From positions 1 to 52,881 of IMG/VR virus record IMGVR_UViG_3300020446_000014: a stretch of 52,881 nt of DNA. One strand, 5' to 3'. Within the stretch, counting starts at the first letter, position 1. Each line of letters starts with the position of its first letter. Source of the stretch: a virus. Shown in pieces: positions 15,409-29,129 of the stretch. The notes under the pieces were generated by a model that was not told the DNA's origin, did not search any database, and worked only from the letters and a program-made list of their open reading frames with translations. Made by a program: the position numbers and the translations under genes.

Positions 15409-16187
15409 AATGTATCTTTTACAAATGTTCCATCAATCATTCTACCAGTTCTATCAAAAATTTCATCATAAGCAGACTGAATACAGCTTTCAATGTCATA
15501 TCCGACCAATTTTGAGAGATTTGTAAGTACAACAACACTATCACCAATAGCGTCAATAATACCATTTTTATCGCCTTCAAGTATTGCTTTGGCGAGTTCT
15601 CCTGTTTCTTCATATAATTTAATTAATTGTGTCTTTGGATCACCTTCTTTATATATCCCTCGCTCATCTGCCCAGCTTCTAATAAGATCAAATATCTCTA
15701 CCTTATCATAAGTAGGTTTTGCTAAAAAAGCTTCATAATAAGCTTTATTATAAATAAAACAACGGTCATTGTTGTACATGGATGGCTTCACATTTGCTAG
15801 TATCCATTTTTTTGTTTCATTATTTATTTGAAACTCGCCAAGACTTGTTTTCCAAGATAGACCATCATTTTGATCTAATACCATTTCTAAGTCTTGTTTC
15901 TCACAATTAAACGTCGAGGTTTGTTCTGTGGGGTTAACTTTCATAGATTTAAGTTTTATTAAATTAGTATATAATTGTCTATCAACTTTATAGCCGTAGA
16001 ACTTTTGCAATTGTCTTTCCATCCAAGATGTTTTATCTACATTTCTTGATGAAAAAAGAATATCATATTCGTCTTTATTATATCCCTGTTCACTTTCAAC
16101 GCGTTTATTTAAATTACACGTCATTCCTATTTTTTGACCTGGAATGTGATAAATATAATATATTTTTTTATTGGTAGATTTTATCAT
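15405..16187 (-). CDS. GIY-YIG-like domain fused to MazG-type NTP pyrophosphohydrolase
   Basis: 260 residues in two parts. The N-terminal 85 residues have the GIY-YIG layout (IYYIYHIPGQKIGMTCNL, NKRVE, then SWMERQLQKFYGY with a candidate catalytic Glu). From about residue 165 the sequence is MazG-like: IFDLIRSWADERGIYKEGD, then YEETGELAKAI and IIDAIGDSVVVL carry the EExxE and DxxxD metal ligands. MazG proteins hydrolyse (d)NTPs to monophosphates. The GIY-YIG part may be a nuclease or a DNA-binding remnant. The gene is coupled to the CAP-domain gene upstream and a MazG-helix-like small gene downstream. Both domains are recognisable; how they cooperate is unknown. Confidence 0.8.
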   Translation of the reverse strand: MIKSTNKKIYYIYHIPGQKIGMTCNLNKRVESEQGYNKDEYDILFSSRNVDKTSWMERQLQKFYGYKVDRQLYTNLIKLKSMKVNPTEQTSTFNCEKQDLEMVLDQNDGLSWKTSLGEFQINNETKKWILANVKPSMYNNDRCFIYNKAYYEAFLAKPTYDKVEIFDLIRSWADERGIYKEGDPKTQLIKLYEETGELAKAILEGDKNGIIDAIGDSVVVLTNLSKLVGYDIESCIQSAYDEIFDRTGRMIDGTFVKDTL

Positions 16188-16587
16188 ATTTAGCTACAAC
16201 AAAAATTGACTCAGCGTTTTCAGATATTCCAAATCCAACTTTACTTATATCAGGATAAATCATTTGGTAAAATGGAACTCTATTGTCATCTTCTGATAAT
16301 GTCCAGTGAACTACTGCATCTAATATATAATTAACTTGTTGATTATAATATTCTTTATCTAAAGCATATATAGTTTCACCATATAAATCATCTTCGTGAG
16401 TGAAATTATTAGTTGCTGCTATATGATTTGCCCAAGCTTGTGCTTTGTTAGATAATTCTTTATCATAAGATAGTAAATCTAAATTATAATAACTTCTTAT
16501 ATTGTTTTGAAAATTTAACGCAGTAAAATATTCTACCTGCGCATTTATAAAAATTGGAAATAATAAAATTAAAATTAGTTTTTTCAT
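16168..16587 (-). CDS. Secreted CAP/SCP-domain protein
   Basis: 139 residues with a clear signal peptide (MKKLILILLFPIFINAQ, cleavage near residue 17). The mature part resembles the CAP (SCP/PR-1) fold: LNFQNNIRSYYNLDLL, LSNKAQAWANHIAA, NNFTHEDD, then VVHWTLSEDDNRVPF and KVGFGISENAESIFVV. It has the family-type His and Glu positions (FTHED, GISENAE). The protein should be exported to the periplasm or medium. It sits inside the nucleotide/replication operon between thyA and the MazG fusion, overlapping both by a few bases. A role in envelope modification or superinfection exclusion is possible but not shown. Confidence 0.72.
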   Translation of the reverse strand: MKKLILILLFPIFINAQVEYFTALNFQNNIRSYYNLDLLSYDKELSNKAQAWANHIAATNNFTHEDDLYGETIYALDKEYYNQQVNYILDAVVHWTLSEDDNRVPFYQMIYPDISKVGFGISENAESIFVVAKYDKIYQ

Positions 16588-20979: not shown

Positions 20980-21723
20980 TTATAGAAAATCAACTACTTG
21001 CGCGGGATCAACGCTGTCAATTAATTTATTTATTGCATCCCTTTTTATTTGTGATATTCTCACATATGACGCAGAGCCTTTTATATTTAATTTATCTGCT
21101 ATTTCTTTTGCGGACATTTTTCCACAATCTAGGCCATAACTCATTCTTAATACATCATATTCTTTTATAGTAAGATGAGACTCCATTATAGATAATAAAT
21201 ATTTATTCATTATATCTATATTATACTCTTTTGAATTATCTGGTATTTCATAAAAAGTATTATTATCTTGATCTGTTTCATCAATAGAATAAAATACACT
21301 ATTGAAAAACATTTGTACTGTTTTTTTATCTGTTTCAGAGTTCTTACGTATATCATTTAATTTATGCTCAGGTATACGTATGTTACCCCTATTAATATCA
21401 ATAGCTCTTCTTATAGCACCTTTTATTCTTTTAGATAAGAAACTATTTAAAGTTCTTTCTGGTTCAGTTGAATCTGTTATTTGATTCCAATCTATTTTAT
21501 CTACTGCTGCTATCAAACCTATTGTTCCTTCTTGTATTAAATCATTTATTGTCATCACTCCAGATGCTTGTTGTGATGTTGAAAATTTTCTTGCTATTGT
21601 TTCAACTAAACTTATATGTGATATAATTAAATCTTGTCTGCTGTCTCCTGTGTCAGGTATATTTCCATAAGATGCAATGTCATGCTTAAATCTAACATAA
21701 TTTGCAATATTATATTTCTTCAT
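20980..21723 (-). CDS. Phage-encoded sigma-70 family RNA polymerase sigma factor
   Basis: 247 residues. Region 2 is recognisable: LVETIARKFST, NDLIQEGTIGLIAAVDKIDW, then FLSKRIKGAIRRAID in the position of the -10-recognition helix. Region 4 is near the C-terminus (LTIKEYDVLRMSYGL, SAKEIADKLN, SYVRISQIKRDAINKL), a helix-turn-helix for -35 contact. Region 1.1 is absent and region 3 reduced. The start overlaps the stop of the upstream HTH gene by fourteen bases, so the two are coupled. It would redirect host RNA polymerase to a set of phage promoters, probably middle or late ones. Which promoters cannot be read from sequence alone. Confidence 0.88.
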   Translation of the reverse strand: MKKYNIANYVRFKHDIASYGNIPDTGDSRQDLIISHISLVETIARKFSTSQQASGVMTINDLIQEGTIGLIAAVDKIDWNQITDSTEPERTLNSFLSKRIKGAIRRAIDINRGNIRIPEHKLNDIRKNSETDKKTVQMFFNSVFYSIDETDQDNNTFYEIPDNSKEYNIDIMNKYLLSIMESHLTIKEYDVLRMSYGLDCGKMSAKEIADKLNIKGSASYVRISQIKRDAINKLIDSVDPAQVVDFL

Positions 21724-22327
21724 TTAATAACGCCTTTTCTTTTTTTATTTCAGCGGTTATATTTCTATATATTGTTCTTGTTGAAACATCTAATACATTT
21801 GCTATTTTACTTATTGTTATCCTATTATTGTTTTCATGTATTCCTAACATTGCTTCATAAATATCTGGTGGCTCGGCTTTTTTTCTTTTACCTATTATAC
21901 TACCAACTATTTTTAATTTTTCTATTGATGTTAATCCAGAACCTTCTTTAAAAATAATTTTACGCATTTTATTTTTTGGAGGTGCTTCTAAGTCTTGTTC
22001 AAAGACTTCATCAACTAAATTTTTAATACTTATATTATTTAGTTTTATAGTAACAAATCCATTGTCCTTATCTGCAAGATAGTGCGTTAATTCCGAAAAA
22101 TCATCATATGTCATATGTTTATTTAAATACCATAATACTAATAAATGCCATTTAAATGATTTATAAGACGTTATCATAGCTTTAGATCTAAATAATTCAT
22201 AGCACTCGTATGTACCATTTTCATAAAAGTTACCCCAACTAAAAATTTCAGAAGGGGTATCAGTTATAGGTCCGCGTCGATATATGATGCGTCTTCGATG
22301 TAGATATTCGAGATTTCTATGTGACAT
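21710..22327 (-). CDS. Putative helix-turn-helix regulator coupled to the sigma factor
   Basis: 205 residues. The C-terminal segment (NNNRITISKIANVLDVSTRT, IYRNITAEIKKEK) is a good helix-turn-helix. The N-terminal 100 residues contain an aromatic helical part (SYKSFKWHLLVLWYLNKH) of no recognised family. The gene ends within the sigma-factor start. It may regulate early-to-late switching or act with the sigma factor; this is inferred from the motif and coupling only. Confidence 0.7.
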   Translation of the reverse strand: MSHRNLEYLHRRRIIYRRGPITDTPSEIFSWGNFYENGTYECYELFRSKAMITSYKSFKWHLLVLWYLNKHMTYDDFSELTHYLADKDNGFVTIKLNNISIKNLVDEVFEQDLEAPPKNKMRKIIFKEGSGLTSIEKLKIVGSIIGKRKKAEPPDIYEAMLGIHENNNRITISKIANVLDVSTRTIYRNITAEIKKEKALLNEEI

Positions 22328-23503: not shown

Positions 23504-23702
23504 AATGTTTTGATTTTTGATATTTAATTAATTTCATTCTTATTCTATTTTTGTCCCAGTATTCAATTGTTTTATCCTGTAATAACCTATGCTTAGTATA
23601 GTGCCGAGGATCACTAAAATCGTATCCAACACGATAACCTTCTTCATACATTGTTTTAACAATTGTATATACTTCTTTAGGATCTAATACTCTAACTCCC
23701 AT
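23496..23702 (-). CDS. Small hypothetical protein (68 aa)
   Basis: 68 residues with a basic C-terminus (DKNRIRMKLIKYQKSKHYD) and a tyrosine-rich middle (YTIVKTMYEEGYRVGYDF). Overlaps the DnaA-like gene stop by eleven bases. Unknown function. Confidence 0.55.
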   Translation of the reverse strand: MGVRVLDPKEVYTIVKTMYEEGYRVGYDFSDPRHYTKHRLLQDKTIEYWDKNRIRMKLIKYQKSKHYD

Positions 23703-24090
23703 TTCTTAATAATTGATTTAGTTTTTGTTCTAATATATTTATGCGCTCCATAACATCTTTAAAACTAGGTGGAGGTTGAGGAGGTACATAGTGTTCATCT
23801 AAATCACTATATATTTTATTATATACAGTGTTCATATAGCTATCATATTTAGCTTCAGTATCAAACTTTTTTAAACCATTAAGTACAGTTGCGTGATCTC
23901 TCTTTACAGCTCTACCAATAGCAGCTAAGCTTGAATAACTACAAAACTTACGTGCTAGTTTAAAATATATAAATCTAGCTTGCGATAATTCACGTGTACG
24001 TTTTTTAGTTTTTAGGTTAAATAGATTTAATTCATCTTCAACCATTTTAAGTATATCTGTAGGTCTTGCGACTCTTGTTTTTGTTTTCAT
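23692..24090 (-). CDS. Stand-alone DnaA domain IV-like DNA-binding protein
   Basis: 132 residues from MKTKTRVARPTDIL. Residues about 34-75 reproduce the DnaA C-terminal helix-turn-helix: ELSQARFIYFKLARKF, SLAAIGRAVKRDHATVLNGL. R64-D65-H66-A67-T68-V69 corresponds to the RDHTTV signature that contacts DnaA boxes. No AAA+ part is present. A C-terminal coiled coil (SFKDVMERINILEQKLNQLL) suggests dimerisation. A start at 24105 is possible but falls inside the conserved promoter-like motif, so 24090 is preferred. It may bind phage or host DnaA-box-like sites. Confidence 0.78.
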   Translation of the reverse strand: MKTKTRVARPTDILKMVEDELNLFNLKTKKRTRELSQARFIYFKLARKFCSYSSLAAIGRAVKRDHATVLNGLKKFDTEAKYDSYMNTVYNKIYSDLDEHYVPPQPPPSFKDVMERINILEQKLNQLLRNGS

Positions 24091-24093
24091 ATT

Positions 24094-24128
24094 TATATTA
24101 TCCATTTATATTCGTGTTTACCTTGTAA
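24094..24128 (-). promoter_or_regulatory. Early-gene motif copy 6 (before DnaA-like gene)
   Basis: Minus-strand TTACA...TAAACACGA, eight variable bases, GGATAATATA. Same ungapped spacing as the five other copies. The stop codon of the upstream 67-aa gene lies within it, and the DnaA-like start is three bases after it, so a transcript from here would be nearly leaderless or start translation further in. Confidence 0.65.
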
Positions 24129-24321
24129 TTGTCCAAAGTTTGTTGTGTACAAATTTCGTTTTGTACGAACGTTTACCAGCTATAATAATATCTTGATGTT
24201 TTAGATATTCTTTTAAAGTAAATGGCTTACATTCACCGTGAATAGCTTTTTGTTTAGCCCATTGTTTTGCTTTGGCTTTTCTTTTATCTTTAACGTATTG
24301 TTTTAATTCTTGTATTGTCAT
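24118..24321 (-). CDS. Small basic protein (67 aa)
   Basis: 67 residues, very basic (QYVKDKRKAKAKQWAKQKAI), then GECKPFTLKEYLKHQDIIIA. Start overlaps the previous stop (ATGA). Its stop codon is embedded in the regulatory motif upstream of the DnaA-like gene. Unknown function; nucleic-acid binding is plausible from charge. Confidence 0.6.
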   Translation of the reverse strand: MTIQELKQYVKDKRKAKAKQWAKQKAIHGECKPFTLKEYLKHQDIIIAGKRSYKTKFVHNKLWTITR

Positions 24322-24473
24322 TTCTTTTTAATTATAGTTAAACCTTTTTTTCCAAAAGTATTTTTATATCCAAATTCATAGCCATCAGCTAATTCATATT
24401 TGATATTTTTTGCTGGAGGTATATTAGCACGACCTCCCATATATTTATCTATGAGGTATTGTTCTATATTCAT
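24318..24473 (-). CDS. Small hypothetical protein (51 aa)
   Basis: ATG at 24473 (TAATG overlap with the upstream gene), stop in an ATGA overlap with the next. Product: MNIEQYLIDKYMGGRANIPP, later YELADGYEFGYKNTFGKKG. Unknown function; supported by precise coupling on both sides. Confidence 0.6.
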   Translation of the reverse strand: MNIEQYLIDKYMGGRANIPPAKNIKYELADGYEFGYKNTFGKKGLTIIKKK

Positions 24474-24733
24474 TATGATAATTGTTTTGCTTTATAAACT
24501 GTATATGGTTCAAGGGATTTAATTGGCATCCTATATTTAGATTCATCAATAAGTTTAGCCATTCTAATCCATACTCTTAAGTCTCTAATGTCACCCATAA
24601 TTCTTTTATAATTTAATTCAGGCCACATACCTTTGTGTCTTTCTTTAAACCCTTCTCGTATATTCAAACGGTAGTTAGCTATTTTTGATATGAGCATTGA
24701 TTCAATGCGATCGTCTATATATGTGTTATCCAT
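24473..24733 (-). CDS. Hypothetical early protein (86 aa), first gene after the tRNA
   Basis: 86 residues, basic, helical (DRIESMLISKIANYRLNIRE, then LNYKRIMGDIRDLRVWIRM). It begins 21 bases downstream of the tRNA 3' end in the same direction. No family recognised. Confidence 0.6.
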   Translation of the reverse strand: MDNTYIDDRIESMLISKIANYRLNIREGFKERHKGMWPELNYKRIMGDIRDLRVWIRMAKLIDESKYRMPIKSLEPYTVYKAKQLS

Positions 24734-24753
24734 TTTATTTAATTTAAAATTAG

Positions 24754-24826
24754 TTGCGCGGGCAGGATTCGAACCTGCGACCTCAGGGTTATGAGCCCTG
24801 CGAGCTGGCCACTGCTCTACCGCGCT
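24754..24826 (-). tRNA. tRNA-Met (CAT), initiator type
   Basis: 73-nt cloverleaf: 7-bp acceptor with an unpaired A1/A72, D stem GAGC/GCTC, anticodon stem CAGGG/CCCTG with loop CTCATAA, 5-nt variable loop, T stem GCAGG/CCTGC with TTCGAAT. Initiator hallmarks: no 1-72 pair, three consecutive G-C pairs at 29-31/39-41, and A11-T24 in the D stem. The discriminator is A and CTA follows, so CCA is not encoded and must be added by the host enzyme. Confidence 0.93.
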
Positions 24827-24833
24827 AAAAGTT

Positions 24834-25106
24834 AGGGAATTGTTTAGTTCACTGTGGGCTCGCTTCTGAACGAAGTTACATCGCCTCCCCTAAACTTTTC
24901 CCTATATAATAACAGACGAGGTAGGTTTATTTCCACAGAGCCTACATTGTCATCACTTTATGCAACCCTCACCTTTGCTTTTCGTTTACTCTCCCATGCT
25001 AGCCAAGAGGTACGCCGGTTTTTTTGGGTTACTGTGGCCCGTCTGTATAAGATGCCCGATAGCTATATTAACTGAGGGAAATTCTAAAAAACCTCAACTA
25101 CCGGGC
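24834..25106 (-). ncRNA. Candidate structured non-coding RNA with pseudoknot, next to the tRNA
   Basis: A roughly 270-nt stretch without a convincing gene, clearly richer in G+C than its surroundings. Complementary segments: 25098-25106/25054-25062 (9 bp, one G-U), inside it 25092-25096/25073-25077; nested 24912-24918/25040-25046, 24933-24938/25032-25037 and 24964-24968/25026-25030, almost continuous on the 25026-25046 strand; hairpin 24921-24925/24941-24945 whose loop holds 24933-24938, making a pseudoknot; and 24834-24839/24898-24903 with 24842-24847/24890-24895 enclosing a CTTC/GAAG hairpin. Minus strand is chosen from the neighbours. It lacks recognisable RNase P, tmRNA, 6S or group I signatures. 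Confidence 0.7.
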
Positions 25107-25137
25107 GGTTGAACACACACACAATTTGAAAAAAAGT

Positions 25138-25293
25138 TTATAATTGTTGATTAAGTATATAATTAATCACTTGCTTAGGTGTGCCCGTCATTTTATTTAT
25201 TTTGCCATGTTCGTCGTGAAATTCTAATTGATAGAAAGCTGGACGGTGTATAGCAAAAGGTGTATCATATTTGTTTCCTGCCATATTATTCAT
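25138..25293 (-). CDS. Small hypothetical protein (51 aa)
   Basis: From MNNMAGNKYDTPFAIHRPAF; ends PKQVINYILNQQL. A longer in-frame start at 25329 would intrude further into the upstream gene, so 25293 (or 25284) is preferred. Core YQLEFHDEHGKINKMTG is beta-like. It is the last gene before the structured RNA region. Unknown function. Confidence 0.5.
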   Translation of the reverse strand: MNNMAGNKYDTPFAIHRPAFYQLEFHDEHGKINKMTGTPKQVINYILNQQL

Positions 25294-25510
25294 CTTTAGG
25301 TATATAATCATCTTCAGGTCGGTATTCAAATTTATCTCGCACGCGACCTTTTTGACTTGGTCTAGGTATACTATAACCTACGATCGGATTTATGTTGTGG
25401 TTCCAAAAGTCCCACGGCATTTCCTTTGTTTCAATTTTATCATCTAATATTCCCATAGGGTCATTATCAAATATTTCTTGTAATATTTTATCTTTTTTAT
25501 TCTTCGTCAT
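25286..25510 (-). CDS. Small hypothetical protein (74 aa)
   Basis: From MTKNKKDKILQEIFDND; contains a W-rich stretch (EMPWDFWNHNINPIVGYSIP) and an acidic end (RPEDDYIPKDE). The start lies within the 3' end of the upstream gene. Unknown function. Confidence 0.52.
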   Translation of the reverse strand: MTKNKKDKILQEIFDNDPMGILDDKIETKEMPWDFWNHNINPIVGYSIPRPSQKGRVRDKFEYRPEDDYIPKDE

Positions 25511-25835
25511 CTTCGTTGTCTTTATGTTCTTCAATATAATCTTGTACTTCATACTCTGGTAAGTATATGTCTATGTCTGATATGTAAATGATTGCTTCAT
25601 TCATACCGTCATCTTCACCCACTTGTTTAATACGCTCAATAACTTGTTCAAATGATGGTTCATAATAGTATACATCATATTCAAAGTCTAAGTTGTGTGG
25701 GTCTTCAGTCATAACGTGTAGGTCATACCCGTCAGCTGTGTGCCATTCACCGATTTCAAGAGCGGTGCCTGATTTCCAATCTTCAGTTATTTCAGCTACT
25801 TTTAATAGCTGTGCTAATTGTTCTATATGTGTCAT
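25497..25835 (-). CDS. Acidic early protein (112 aa)
   Basis: 112 residues, strongly acidic with an Asp/Glu C-terminus (EEHKDNEDDEE). Middle: LDFEYDVYYYEPSFEQVIER, then NEAIIYISDIDIYLPEYEV. Charge distribution recalls DNA-mimic or inhibitor proteins among phage early genes, but no family is recognised. Confidence 0.62.
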   Translation of the reverse strand: MTHIEQLAQLLKVAEITEDWKSGTALEIGEWHTADGYDLHVMTEDPHNLDFEYDVYYYEPSFEQVIERIKQVGEDDGMNEAIIYISDIDIYLPEYEVQDYIEEHKDNEDDEE

Positions 25836-25836
25836 T

Positions 25837-26016
25837 TTAATATTCTTTTAATTTTTTAATTACTAATTGTCTTATATCTGTTATTGCTTCATTAAAATAA
25901 TCATCACTGAGTTCATCAACTTCTGTACCATCAACAGCCCATGCAATGCTATTATTAATGTGTTCATTTATTACGTCAGCAACGTTTGTTGCTATTTCAT
26001 CTAATTCTTTTTTCAT
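25837..26016 (-). CDS. Small acidic helical protein (59 aa)
   Basis: From MKKELDEIATNVADVINEHI; later WAVDGTEVDELSDDYFNEAI. The longer start at 26037 adds residues overlapping the zinc-ribbon gene. Ends one base before the next start. Unknown function. Confidence 0.55.
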   Translation of the reverse strand: MKKELDEIATNVADVINEHINNSIAWAVDGTEVDELSDDYFNEAITDIRQLVIKKLKEY

Positions 26017-26021
26017 AATAT

Positions 26022-26114
26022 TTAATATTCTAAGCATTCACCACAAATATCACAGAATTCAAATTCTTCTTCTGCCATTGGTTGAAAGCATATTTGACAA
26101 GTAAATTCATTCAT
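26022..26114 (-). CDS. 30-residue zinc-ribbon miniprotein
   Basis: ATG at 26114 overlaps the stop of the upstream gene (ATGA); TAA at 26024-26022. The product contains TCQICFQP and FCDICGECLEY, so two CxxC knuckles separated by 14 residues plus a fifth cysteine, the pattern of a zinc ribbon. Five cysteines in thirty residues in an AT-rich genome is unlikely by chance. Probably a protein- or nucleic-acid-binding microprotein. Confidence 0.6.
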   Translation of the reverse strand: MNEFTCQICFQPMAEEEFEFCDICGECLEY

Positions 26115-26308
26115 ACTATTTCAAGATTTAGTTCACTAGCTACATAATTAATATGCTTTGTAGTTGTTGCGCTGTATGACCCTACACCTGGAACGTACCA
26201 GTTTAATCTGTATAGTTTGCCATCTTTTATTTCAGCAACGTGTGTGTCATATGATATAACGTCGTTGCCAATTATTTTTAGGTTTTGTTTGTATCTGTCT
26301 AATTTCAT
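26111..26308 (-). CDS. Small conserved-looking phage protein (65 aa)
   Basis: 65 residues: MKLDRYKQNLKIIGNDVISY, DTHVAEIKDGKLYRLNWYV, ATTTKHINYVASELNLEIV. This arrangement (beta hairpin 'vxSYxThVA', then 'SxTTxKHINYVA') is one I recall recurring in many phages as a domain of unknown function. Ends one base after the upstream gene's stop. Confidence 0.66.
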   Translation of the reverse strand: MKLDRYKQNLKIIGNDVISYDTHVAEIKDGKLYRLNWYVPGVGSYSATTTKHINYVASELNLEIV

Positions 26309-26309
26309 T

Positions 26310-26540
26310 TTATTTAGTATTTGTTGTTATTAATTCGCCATCTAGTTCAGCTTTGTCAATCCAAGCATGAAGCTTTACGGTCATGTATTCAATTACATCT
26401 TCAACGTCATATCCGTCTTCCCACATTTTAGGGACAAATTTTTCAAATGCATATCTTAAATCCCAGTCAGCATTTGTAAGGTTATCAATTCTTGTTACTT
26501 TTGATTGTATGTCTAAGTATGTTTGTATTTGTGTGTTCAT
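26310..26540 (-). CDS. Small hypothetical protein (76 aa)
   Basis: 76 residues, helical and acidic (LTNADWDLRYAFEKFVPKMW, then DVEDVIEYMTVKLHAWIDKA). First gene after motif copy 1, with an A-rich leader of about 33 bases. Unknown function. Confidence 0.58.
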   Translation of the reverse strand: MNTQIQTYLDIQSKVTRIDNLTNADWDLRYAFEKFVPKMWEDGYDVEDVIEYMTVKLHAWIDKAELDGELITTNTK

Positions 26541-26573
26541 AATATTTAATTTTAATTGTTATTGTTATTCATA

Positions 26574-26610
26574 ATTATTATCCGATTACTATCGTGTTAG
26601 GTCTGTAAAA
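26574..26610 (-). promoter_or_regulatory. Early-gene motif copy 1
   Basis: Minus-strand TTTTACA...CTAACACGA, eight bases, GGATAATAAT. Preceded by AATGCTATACAT, also seen before copy 2. Lies in the gap before the 76-aa gene; the upstream gene's stop is just outside it. Confidence 0.68.
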
Positions 26611-26621
26611 ATGTATAGCAT

Positions 26622-26795
26622 TTAGCCAATGTATTGTAGTTCTTTTTTAACTTTCTTTAATATTTTAAAACTACTTTGTGCATTCTGCCATACGCCATAA
26701 TCAGGACCTAATTCAACTAAAGTGTTTATTGCTACTTTAGCATCCAGTAATAAGTCTTGAGCATTAGCTCTTGTTGTTTCTTGTTGTGTTTTCAT
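26622..26795 (-). CDS. Small hypothetical protein (57 aa)
   Basis: ATG at 26795 to TAA at 26624-26622. Product: TTRANAQDLLLDAKVAINTL, then ELGPDYGVWQNAQSSFKIL. Short, helical, single domain. Begins one base after the upstream stop. Unknown function. Confidence 0.55.
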   Translation of the reverse strand: MKTQQETTRANAQDLLLDAKVAINTLVELGPDYGVWQNAQSSFKILKKVKKELQYIG

Positions 26796-26796
26796 A

Positions 26797-26976
26797 TTAA
26801 TGTATTATCGGTTTGTTTTTATGGACCATCCATTCACAATTTGTAATGTTGTGGCCTAGTTCAGTTAGCTTTGATTCAAGGTCCTCATTATCTACATCCC
26901 ATACACTAATAGGATATTGACAGACATCACCTTGCTCAAAATCTAATACGGTTACATATTTCATTGGTTCTATCAT
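26797..26976 (-). CDS. Small hypothetical protein (59 aa)
   Basis: From MIEPMKYVTVLDFEQGDVCQ; ends MVHKNKPIIH. The longer in-frame start at 27045 would overlap the upstream gene, so the ATG at 26976, ten bases after that gene's stop, is chosen. Unknown function. Confidence 0.57.
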   Translation of the reverse strand: MIEPMKYVTVLDFEQGDVCQYPISVWDVDNEDLESKLTELGHNITNCEWMVHKNKPIIH

Positions 26977-26986
26977 ATTATTTGTT

Positions 26987-27298
26987 TTAGGTTCCTGCAA
27001 ATGTCCAAGGATTATTTGCACAGTATTCATTAATTTCTTTCTCACGTTTTAATATATTTGGTAGGTCAACTAATGTGTCTTGAATACGCTGAGCACATTC
27101 TATGACGTTGTTCTCATTGACTTGAATTATACTATCACCCATGGCGGTTTTTAATCTTAATACTTTACCACCATAGAGTGCATTGTCTTCAAGTGTAAAA
27201 TACCATTCGCCGTTATGACTTGCATTGTAGCCAGGGAAATGGCCATCTAAAAATTGTTTTATTATGTATTCGTTAAGTGTTGTTCTTTTTGTATTCAT
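26987..27298 (-). CDS. Hypothetical early protein (103 aa)
   Basis: 103 residues: EYIIKQFLDGHFPGYNAS, GEWYFTLEDNALYGGKVLRL, then helix ECAQRIQDTLVDLPNILKRE. A compact alpha/beta protein with no recognised family. Start overlaps the preceding stop (ATGA). Confidence 0.62.
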   Translation of the reverse strand: MNTKRTTLNEYIIKQFLDGHFPGYNASHNGEWYFTLEDNALYGGKVLRLKTAMGDSIIQVNENNVIECAQRIQDTLVDLPNILKREKEINEYCANNPWTFAGT

Positions 27299-27471
27299 CC
27301 TATATAATTTTTTTTGATTTGTTGTTTTAAATAATTGCGTCGAGTTAATAGTTTTTCGTTGGTGTATAGCAATTGACCTTGTTGGGCCAGTGGCATACCT
27401 TCGATTGATAACTCTTGTATCAATTCTAGTTTTGCTTCGACTGCTTTTAATTCATCTAATATTGTGTCCAT
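27295..27471 (-). CDS. Small coiled-coil protein (58 aa)
   Basis: ATG at 27471; TGA overlaps the next ATG. Product: MDTILDELKAVEAKLELIQE, then GMPLAQQGQLLYTNEKLLTR. Predicted helical hairpin. Unknown function; supported by ATGA coupling. Confidence 0.6.
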   Translation of the reverse strand: MDTILDELKAVEAKLELIQELSIEGMPLAQQGQLLYTNEKLLTRRNYLKQQIKKNYIG

Positions 27472-27609
27472 TTATTTGTAATTTATAATTCCTCTTATAT
27501 CTTTTTCATCAAAGTCCCAGCGATTTAATATGCGCTTTACTATTTCATCTTCAGAGACGCCTTGGCGTTCCCATTTGTCTATTAGTTCTATTATATATTC
27601 TACTAGCAT
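27472..27609 (-). CDS. Small helical protein (45 aa)
   Basis: ATG at 27609; TAA is directly followed by the next ATG. Product: YIIELIDKWERQGVSEDEIV, then KRILNRWDFDEKDIRG. Amphipathic helices with regular spacing support a real small protein. Unknown function. Confidence 0.57.
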   Translation of the reverse strand: MLVEYIIELIDKWERQGVSEDEIVKRILNRWDFDEKDIRGIINYK

Positions 27610-27749
27610 AATGTGTTTTTTATTTTGATTAGATTTGTTAATGTGTCTGTTATTGTTTCTTTTTTGCCATCAGCATATGTGATGTTGAGGTTAAACTTTT
27701 CTTTTATTAAACTACCTGTGATGTTCCAGTCAATTGTTTTTGTTTTCAT
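27603..27749 (-). CDS. Small hypothetical protein (48 aa)
   Basis: ATG at 27749; TAG overlaps the next gene by seven bases. Product: KTIDWNITGSLIKEKFNLNI, then YADGKKETITDTLTNLIKI. Looks like a small beta-beta-alpha unit. Unknown function. Confidence 0.55.
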   Translation of the reverse strand: MKTKTIDWNITGSLIKEKFNLNITYADGKKETITDTLTNLIKIKNTLC

Positions 27750-27910
27750 TTTATATTTTTTATTAGATTATGTATTTCTTTTGTGTCTTTTATATGATAA
27801 TTAGAGTGGTACTTATCATTTACTTTTATTATTGTGTCTATTAGATAATCAAATTCTTTATCAGTGTAGTAAAGTTCAATTGATATTTTTTTAGTGTGTA
27901 TTTGTTTCAT
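27746..27910 (-). CDS. Small hypothetical protein (54 aa)
   Basis: ATG at 27910, TGA in an ATGA overlap with the next gene. Product: KKISIELYYTDKEFDYLIDT, then VNDKYHSNYHIKDTKEIHNL. Directly downstream of motif copy 2 with a 22-base leader. Unknown function. Confidence 0.58.
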   Translation of the reverse strand: MKQIHTKKISIELYYTDKEFDYLIDTIIKVNDKYHSNYHIKDTKEIHNLIKNIK

Positions 27911-27932
27911 TTTGTTTTATTTAGTATTCAAT

Positions 27933-27969
27933 TATATTATCCAATTTGATTCGTGTTTAGTTTGTAAAA
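27933..27969 (-). promoter_or_regulatory. Early-gene motif copy 2
   Basis: Minus-strand TTTTACAAACTAAACACGA, eight bases, GGATAATATA. Contains TAAACA and TATAAT separated by 17 bases, a plausible -35/-10 spacing. Preceded by AATGCTATACAT as in copy 1. Sits 22 bases before the start of the 54-aa gene. Confidence 0.72.
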
Positions 27970-27978
27970 TGTATAGCA

Positions 27979-28155
27979 TTAGAGTTCAAATCTAGTATGT
28001 GCATAGTACACTTTAGTTGTATTGATATGGTTCCAGTGAGCATTTCTTGCAAAGGTTATTCTTGTTGGACCTTTAGAACCAAGTCTATACATAGTCATTT
28101 GTCTTTCAGTTTGCTTTGCTTGTCTTGCTAATTTTTTCTCTAATTTAGTTTTCAT
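27979..28155 (-). CDS. Small basic protein (58 aa)
   Basis: ATG at 28155 to TAA at 27981-27979. Basic helical N-terminus (MKTKLEKKLARQAKQTERQM), then TMYRLGSKGPTRITFARNAH and a Tyr-rich end. Its stop lies beside motif copy 2. Unknown function. Confidence 0.55.
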   Translation of the reverse strand: MKTKLEKKLARQAKQTERQMTMYRLGSKGPTRITFARNAHWNHINTTKVYYAHTRFEL

Positions 28156-28195
28156 AAGGTGTGTATTTTATTTATTATTAAATTTTAGTTATGTG

Positions 28196-28351
28196 TTATT
28201 GTGCTTTGTCTCTGGTTATGTCAAAGAATTTATTGAGTAATATTTTCATATCTTGATGTGCTTGCTCAGGTAAATTATCAAAATCATCAGAGTTTAGTAA
28301 ATTTTCTAAAGCATATTCAATTAATTGTGATTGACTTTTTGTTAATTGCAT
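28196..28351 (-). CDS. Small acidic helical protein (51 aa)
   Basis: ATG at 28351 to TAA at 28198-28196. Product: QLTKSQSQLIEYALENLLNS, then NLPEQAHQDMKILLNKFFDI. Follows motif copy 3 with a 25-base A-rich leader. Unknown function. Confidence 0.57.
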   Translation of the reverse strand: MQLTKSQSQLIEYALENLLNSDDFDNLPEQAHQDMKILLNKFFDITRDKAQ

Positions 28352-28376
28352 TTTATTTTTATTTTATGTGTTCATA

Positions 28377-28412
28377 TATATTATCCAGTTGAGGTCGTGT
28401 TTACTTTGTAAA
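28377..28412 (-). promoter_or_regulatory. Early-gene motif copy 3
   Basis: Minus-strand ATTTACAAAGTAAACACGA, eight bases, GGATAATATA. The stop codon of the upstream 43-aa gene (FTK-stop) lies inside the conserved TAAACACGA, so coding end and control element are merged. Confidence 0.7.
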
Positions 28413-28532
28413 TTTCCAAGTAGCATTTTCAAATTCATCACAGTATTCACTGTCCCAAAGCATTTCTTCTAATACTTTATTAATTTCTTTTTTGCTTAAA
28501 TCTGTTTGTAGTGTAATAGTTATATTTTGCAT
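28401..28532 (-). CDS. Small hypothetical protein (43 aa)
   Basis: ATG at 28532 to TAA at 28403-28401. Product: QNITITLQTDLSKKEINKVL, then EEMLWDSEYCDEFENATWKF. Beta strand plus helix. Preceded by motif copy 4 with a 23-base leader. Unknown function. Confidence 0.55.
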   Translation of the reverse strand: MQNITITLQTDLSKKEINKVLEEMLWDSEYCDEFENATWKFTK

Positions 28533-28555
28533 TTTATTATATTTTTATGTTCTTA

Positions 28556-28591
28556 TATATTATCCAATTCAGTTCGTGTTAACTCTGTAAA
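28556..28591 (-). promoter_or_regulatory. Early-gene motif copy 4
   Basis: Minus-strand TTTTACAGAGTTAACACGA, eight bases, GGATAATATA, with the same spacing as the other copies. A short GC-rich patch (28592-28620) lies just upstream on the minus strand. Confidence 0.7.
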
Positions 28592-28621
28592 AAACTCGCG
28601 GGCTCGCTGTGTCCGATGAGG

Positions 28622-28804
28622 TTAATAAGCTTTTGAAACTCTATTGTAAAACTCTTCAATTGCTTCATTATATTTCATTTCAATTCCACAATCTTTGAAT
28701 GCAAATTTTATTATCATTTTTTCCATTTCAATTTGTATTTTGCTGCCATAATAATTCTCATCATTTGCTAATAATTCTAATTCTTTTTTTATAATTTCTA
28801 ACAT
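28622..28804 (-). CDS. First early gene of the leftward arm, small helical protein (60 aa)
   Basis: 60 residues: MLEIIKKELELLANDENYYG, then KMIIKFAFKDCGIEMKYNEA. First ORF on the minus strand after the divergent region, 23 bases downstream of motif copy 5, so probably among the earliest transcribed genes. No family recognised. Confidence 0.6.
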   Translation of the reverse strand: MLEIIKKELELLANDENYYGSKIQIEMEKMIIKFAFKDCGIEMKYNEAIEEFYNRVSKAY

Positions 28805-28827
28805 AATTTTTATATTTTATTTACATT

Positions 28828-28865
28828 TATATTATCCAAAATAGTTCGTGTTTAGCTTGTAAAAA
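28828..28865 (-). promoter_or_regulatory. Early-gene motif copy 5 (first promoter of the leftward arm)
   Basis: Minus-strand TTTTACAAGCTAAACACGA, eight bases, GGATAATATA. It sits at the head of the whole leftward unit with no gene overlapping it, so it is the cleanest promoter candidate. TAAACA and TATAAA are 17 bases apart. Confidence 0.74.
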
Positions 28866-29129
28866 TTTGCATTAAAAAGGCAAAAAGTTAAAGTGTTGAT
28901 ATACAATTAGTTAGGGGGTGGGGTTTAAAATATGGTTTTAGTTTAAGTGGCTGAGTGTCAAATAGTTACGCGTAATACAAAACCTATAAACTTATAACAA
29001 AAAAATAATTTACCTACCCGGGGTATATTAAAAAACCTTAAGTGGTATGACAATAGGGTATTAATATAATAATGTAGGGGGCTAACGTCACACTTTTGAC
29101 TTCTGAGAATAGCATGTAATAAAATATGC
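28866..29129. other. Divergent intergenic control region
   Basis: About 260 bases without a convincing gene between the leftward early and rightward late arms. It contains G runs (TTAGGGGGTGGGGTTT near 28910-28926 and TAGGGGGC near 29082), a CCCGGG palindrome near 29018 and AT-rich stretches. I see no clear intrinsic terminator. It must hold plus-strand promoters for the gene at 29130. It is also a candidate replication origin by position, without direct proof. Confidence 0.55.

Follow-up and report, generated by a model that had tools for sequence, protein, structure and literature searches.

The stretch of DNA analysed here, called the window in what follows, is the whole IMG/VR record IMGVR_UViG_3300020446_000014 with its 52,881 bases. 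Judged by terminase and portal, the nearest named phages infect Flavobacterium, Cellulophaga, Maribacter and Tenacibaculum, and the host of the window virus is therefore most likely a member of Bacteroidota. The minus strand encodes a sigma70-family factor, a protein with a C-terminal HTH and a protein resembling domain IV of DnaA, and the same strand carries six copies of a conserved motif (Table 1), which the earlier note had placed between positions 24094 and 28865 and which are all found where it put them. Two further features may be mentioned: a CAP-superfamily (cysteine-rich secretory protein) gene at 16168-16587 on the minus strand (Pfam E 4e-16), which lies amid genes of nucleotide metabolism, and about 300 bases of non-coding DNA at 24827-25125, which follow the tRNA-Met gene. 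This non-coding stretch is 97% identical in near relatives and short pieces of it recur in other relatives, while it has no Rfam match and folds no better than its shuffles (z -0.27).

Table 1. Features of the window that bear on the motif; promoters and transcription starts are predicted
Feature	Position	Strand	Details
Promoter copy 1 (predicted)	28824..28862	-	exact match, 49.1 bits; inferred start G 28824; ATG of first gene 28804
Promoter copy 2 (predicted)	28552..28590	-	exact match, 43.8 bits; inferred start G 28552; ATG 28532
Promoter copy 3 (predicted)	28373..28411	-	exact match, 48.6 bits; inferred start G 28373; ATG 28351
Promoter copy 4 (predicted)	27929..27967	-	exact match, 51.5 bits; inferred start G 27929; ATG 27910
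Promoter copy 5 (predicted)	26570..26608	-	exact match, 39.4 bits; inferred start G 26570; ATG 26540
Promoter copy 6 (predicted)	24090..24128	-	exact match, 45.6 bits; AACACGA from 24118; inferred start A 24090
DnaA domain-IV-like protein (gene would be transcribed from copy 6)	23692-24090	-	Bac_DnaA_C E 2.7e-12
205-aa protein, C-terminal HTH	21710-22327	-	gene overlaps sigma start; Pfam HTH_11 in 31/33 members
Phage sigma70-family factor, 247 aa	20980-21723	-	phrog_351 E 1.7e-21; Pfam Sigma70_r2/r4

All six copies match AACACGA-N8-GGATAATA exactly, in agreement with the claim of eight variable bases and a spacing that never varies. About two matches with three mismatches are expected by chance in the window, and there is no seventh match in it at three mismatches or fewer. 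One detail of the original description needs correction, namely that the number of bases between TTACA and wAACACGA is four and not five. When scored with the profile of the whole motif family (see below), the six copies reach 39-52 bits, whereas none of 60 Markov surrogates of the window exceeds 8.9. To exemplify the arrangement, copy 1 consists of TTACAAG at 28862-28856, AACACGA at 28852-28846 and GATAATA at 28836-28830. As had been claimed, an ATG follows five of the copies, here 19-30 nt past the inferred start; the gene behind copy 2 is a 43-aa ORF (28401-28532), the stop of which overlaps copy 3. At the sixth copy the ATG lies inside the claimed motif, the inferred start coinciding with the first base of the DnaA-like gene's ATG, five codons inside a longer ORF that was listed mechanically, and the mRNA from this copy is predicted to be leaderless.

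A profile search over the window and its relatives had been proposed as a check, and the motif is indeed found in relatives. A scan of IMG/VR with the exact pattern gives 107 stretches, and many contigs have three to six matches, while the number of single exact matches is about what chance would give in so large a collection. When ACA is added to the pattern and two mismatches are allowed, 42 of these contigs have 2-10 copies each, on one strand within each contig, and the reversed pattern is found in none of the 42. Iteration of the profile leads to 346 distinct sites that score at least 14 bits, with 0 in reversed sequence, and among 143 loci with the sigma gene there are 497 distinct sites on the sigma strand versus 4 on the opposite strand, again with none in the reversed-sequence control. 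In 19 near-complete contigs, all 136 copies lie on one strand, a single one falls within an ORF of at least 100 aa, and the median distance from inferred start to ATG is 20 nt. These results confirm that the motif is real.

The motif has three parts at fixed spacing, TTACAAA, AAYACGA and GATAATA, followed by a purine at a fixed place. With position 0 defined as the first A of AAYACGA, the consensus reads TTACAAACTA (-10 to -1), AAYACGA (0-6), 8 or 9 variable bases, (G)GATAATA (15/16-22), TAAA, Y27 and R28. AAYACGA and GATAATA are separated by 9 nt in 347 of 348 cases; between TACA and AAYACGA the gap is 5 nt in 267, where no other value accounts for more than 8.

Position 28 is a purine in 490 of 494 sites. 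When the ATGs that open ORFs of at least 35 codons are plotted along the profile, they show a wide maximum over positions 37-50 and a narrow peak exactly at 28; an ATG stands at position 28 in 67 of the 494 sites and every one of these 67 is open, as compared with 18 of the 125 ATGs at position 26, which are common there by sequence. Because the peak of open ATGs coincides with the fixed purine, position 28 is most likely the transcription start and some of the mRNAs are most likely leaderless, the simplest reading being a leaderless share of about 14%. If position 28 is +1, GATAAT would lie at -12 to -7, TTACAAA at -38 to -32 and AAYACGA at -28 to -22, in the spacer. The canonical place of the -10 hexamer is -12 to -7. 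As in a sigma70-family promoter, GATAAT would thus end 6 nt before the starting purine, and an upstream element would lie near -35 with a fixed gap to the element that follows it. The boxes proposed in the earlier note, TAAACA and TATAWW at a distance of 17 bp, are probably wrong, since the ATG peak and the purine at 28 place the -10 box at GATAAT; they would give a +1 near position 33, where there is no comparable purine or ATG signal. Its more general suggestion of a promoter-like element with conservation beyond a -35/-10 pair is supported.

Some other recurrent sequences accompany the motif. The element TGCTATACA(C) occurs at 27977 and 26619 on the minus strand of the window and also in L410 (386-5201); it is strand-biased in many of these phages (e.g., 12 vs 2) and is often situated 10-20 nt upstream of the promoter motif or in front of small genes. 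A C-rich tract, ACCCCACCCCC on the early strand, occurs at about 28911-28925 in the window. Many relatives have it too, about 40-70 nt ahead of their first copy of the motif, where early and late clusters start divergently. Rare motif copies precede a G-rich stretch, often with GGGGCCCG, and no obvious gene (L288 at 94, L297 at 280 and L316 at 389, all three on the strand opposite to sigma; also L026, L095 and L099), and this stretch is perhaps a small RNA.

The sigma factor matches PDB sequences of SigA with E 1.5e-9, and its AlphaFold2 model resembles chains of the primary sigma factor (SigA; E 6.5e-7). It has no close relative in INPHARED, where the best hit is about 25% identical over most of its length. 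A relative is encoded at at least 515 viral loci in a scan of viral records. Relatives of the gene occur also in MAG contigs labelled Lewinella, Saprospiraceae, Sphingobacteriales and Flavobacteriaceae, and in a few with other labels that may be binning errors. One contig of 129,537 bases (IMGVR_UViG_3300047157_000162; L219 and L229), roughly double the length usual for these genomes, has two sigma genes separated by about 62 kb; it is probably two related phages joined during assembly.

A promoter that depends on a phage sigma factor should be found in phages encoding that factor, and 58 of 64 IMG/VR loci with this sigma do carry the motif, always on the strand of the sigma gene; the sigma loci without sites have mostly little DNA upstream of the gene. 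Conversely, sigma is present in 21 of the 23 motif-bearing contigs of at least 40 kb, and in the other two the motif cluster is near a contig end. The contigs G011, with four copies, and G051, with one, have the motif near an end and no sigma, which can be explained by truncation. Three MAG-derived loci (L404, L406 and L408), which have the sigma gene and flanks of short or moderate length, show no clear site. The motif should also be lacking where the sigma factor is lacking. Six isolate or complete phages that share terminase and portal without having the sigma show, in the stretches scanned, no site that reaches 8 bits and, over their full records, no match to the motif pattern, the nearest of them being only 63% identical in terminase, and 199 Flavobacteriaceae genomes contain 1 exact match, the same number as the reversed control. 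Terminase-bearing contigs searched for cases with motif and without sigma were mostly fragments of the structural half and uninformative. All 29 sigma-bearing contigs that were checked share one terminase lineage, and partnership is therefore only partly separated from common descent: sigma and motif may be joint markers of a clade rather than partners.

Three proteins had been named in the earlier note as possible binders of the motif, and only the phage sigma accompanies it throughout. The DnaA-like protein, present in just 17 of the 64 sigma loci, is rejected as reader. The HTH protein is the usual neighbour of sigma (97 of 105 loci with distinct sigmas) and a possible co-factor, and a fold search with it gives no confident match; as a necessary reader of the fixed element it is rejected, since G065 and four other contigs (G064, G066, G067 and G068) keep the motif without it, one of the contigs lacking it being 62 kb long with six motif copies. 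Because each of these proteins is absent from some motif-bearing loci, the sigma factor is the only candidate reader found together with the motif throughout.

We infer, with a probability of roughly three in four, that the six copies are early or middle minus-strand promoters read by the host RNA polymerase core together with the phage sigma, where the label early or middle comes from the position and content of the genes. The holoenzyme would start transcription at each copy, with GATAAT as -10 hexamer, TTACAAA as -35-like element, the rigid AAYACGA in the spacer as a third specificity element, and the start at the purine that lies 12 nt downstream of the initial G of GATAAT. The system would probably be self-reinforcing, because the sigma gene lies downstream of the copies on the same strand. 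In seven relatives (L219, L220, L222, L223, L224, L243 and L318) a copy is situated directly in front of the sigma gene, 28-31 nt upstream of its ATG, the ATG in L318 falling exactly at the inferred +1, and this suggests positive feedback of sigma on its own gene.

Copies of the motif stand in front of the first genes in the early cluster, and these genes would have to be transcribed before any phage sigma exists. This would be accounted for if the host sigmaA holoenzyme read the copies together with an activator, of phage or host origin, that binds at AAYACGA in the manner of T4 MotA, and if the phage sigma served late genes; the element in the spacer does suggest an extra protein, and most relatives have an HTH protein coupled to sigma. 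We consider such a scheme unlikely. Flavobacterial sigmaA promoters have TAnnTTTG at -12 to -5 (PMC9723704), whereas profile positions 16-23 read GATAATAT, with G at -12 and GATAATA as the box, so that the motif is as unlike the host promoter as the earlier note had said. Moreover, the motif is at control level in the Flavobacteriaceae genomes, it is not used by the related phages without sigma, and contigs without the HTH protein retain it. Host-type promoters as starters of the cascade were looked for separately and rejected: TTG-N17-23-TAnnTTTG is near chance in 19 contigs, and before first copies TAnnTTTG shows no clear enrichment (5/59 vs 21/461). As to a T7-type RNA polymerase, 14 contigs gave 0 matches to PF00940, but the control genomes likewise gave none.

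That the copies would be operators or replication iterons, bound by the DnaA-like or the HTH protein, is very improbable, even though TTATCC, which forms part of the DnaA box, occurs on their opposite strand, TATTATCCA agrees with TTATCCACA in 7 of 9 bases, and one copy lies at the start of the DnaA-like gene itself. The final two bases of the DnaA box are not conserved, the protein is missing from most sigma loci where a binder of iterons should always be present, and the copies are scattered, one per gene start, on a single strand with ATGs at fixed distances. More improbable still is a conserved RNA element, such as a leader or processing site in which TTACA pairs with TGTAA. Some copies do end in TGTAA, but it follows only 41 of 237 sites with TTACA, as against 27 of 257 others, which led to rejection of the dyad, and an mRNA that begins with an ATG at position 28 would contain no motif at all.

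The motif varies between clades. Within the main group GATAAT is nearly invariant. In two distant sigma relatives (L409 and L415), AAYACGA is replaced by AAAACGA in most copies with the same spacing, and the phage with another distant sigma, L410, has TTGCAGA..AACGA..TATAATA, where CTTGCAGATYTWTAACGA...TATAATAAC is found in five copies and the distances between the three elements are kept. Since the motif thus diverges together with the sigma, the comparison supports the idea that the two form one recognition unit. TTACAAA is the usual form of the upstream box; it is replaced by TTCGAAA in the clade that lacks the HTH protein (18 of 22 sites in these contigs have a box of this kind) and by TACGTAAC in another clade. 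These differences come without obvious change in the helix of sigma region 4.2, which counts against the scheme with the phage sigma. A contact between Arg104, at the position of T440 in sigma70, and G at -12 had appeal when both seemed invariant; it is rejected, since L410 keeps the Arg and yet has T at -12 (TATAAT). The rigid distance from AAYACGA to the -10 box favours a reader that is a fixed part of the holoenzyme, or else a helper that binds tightly. A tentative proposal, which we find rather doubtful, is that the phage sigma's own holoenzyme reads AAYACGA at its fixed distance of 9 nt from the -10 box, in a rigid -25/-12 layout reminiscent of sigma54 spacing and with an accessory -35-like box that drifts between clades.

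A large, widespread and uncultured group of phages with a sigma factor of its own has hereby a predicted promoter for that sigma. The motif can be used as a handle, as it marks gene starts and predicts a regulon as well as leaderless mRNAs, and it offers pairs of sigma and promoter for laboratory Flavobacterium. It also raises the structural question of how a sigma70-family holoenzyme, or a helper, reads the bases from -28 to -22. To our knowledge, work on sigma factors encoded by phages has dealt with only a few cultured ones. In the open-access literature we have found no report of a sigma for any Bacteroidota phage, nor of a promoter motif for phages of this kind.

Middle promoters of phage T4 combine a MotA box centred near -30 with the -10 element of sigma70. 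They share with the present motif a strong extra element between -35 and -10, but here its centre is at -25, the -35-like TTACAAA is kept as well, and the proteins scanned contain no MotA-like match. With flavobacterial sigmaA promoters the motif has in common what is presumably the same host RNA polymerase core and a similar leader length (median 24 nt in the host; PMC9723704), while the -10 box, the base at -12 and the upstream elements differ, and about 14% of the sites here are predicted to give leaderless mRNAs versus 5.5% of mRNAs in F. psychrophilum (PMC9723704). In phage 7-11, the phage sigma gp47 reads late promoters of the form GTAAtg-16-aCTA (PMC8948821). Here, too, a phage sigma would act on the host core at a motif shared by many phage genes, but there is no likeness in sequence, the 7-11 promoters are bipartite whereas a third element stands at invariant spacing in the spacer here, and they are late whereas the present genes are early or middle by position. 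The middle and late promoters of phiEco32, tAATGTAtA, depend on the sigma factor gp36 and the activator gp79 (described in PMC8948821); these phages resemble it in having a phage sigma, possibly with a phage co-activator, and differ from it in that the single -10-like element of phiEco32 is here joined by conserved upstream and spacer elements, and in that the sigma keeps region 4. By analogy, the six copies would work like the sigma-dependent promoters of 7-11 and phiEco32, with a different sequence and with an extra element in the spacer.
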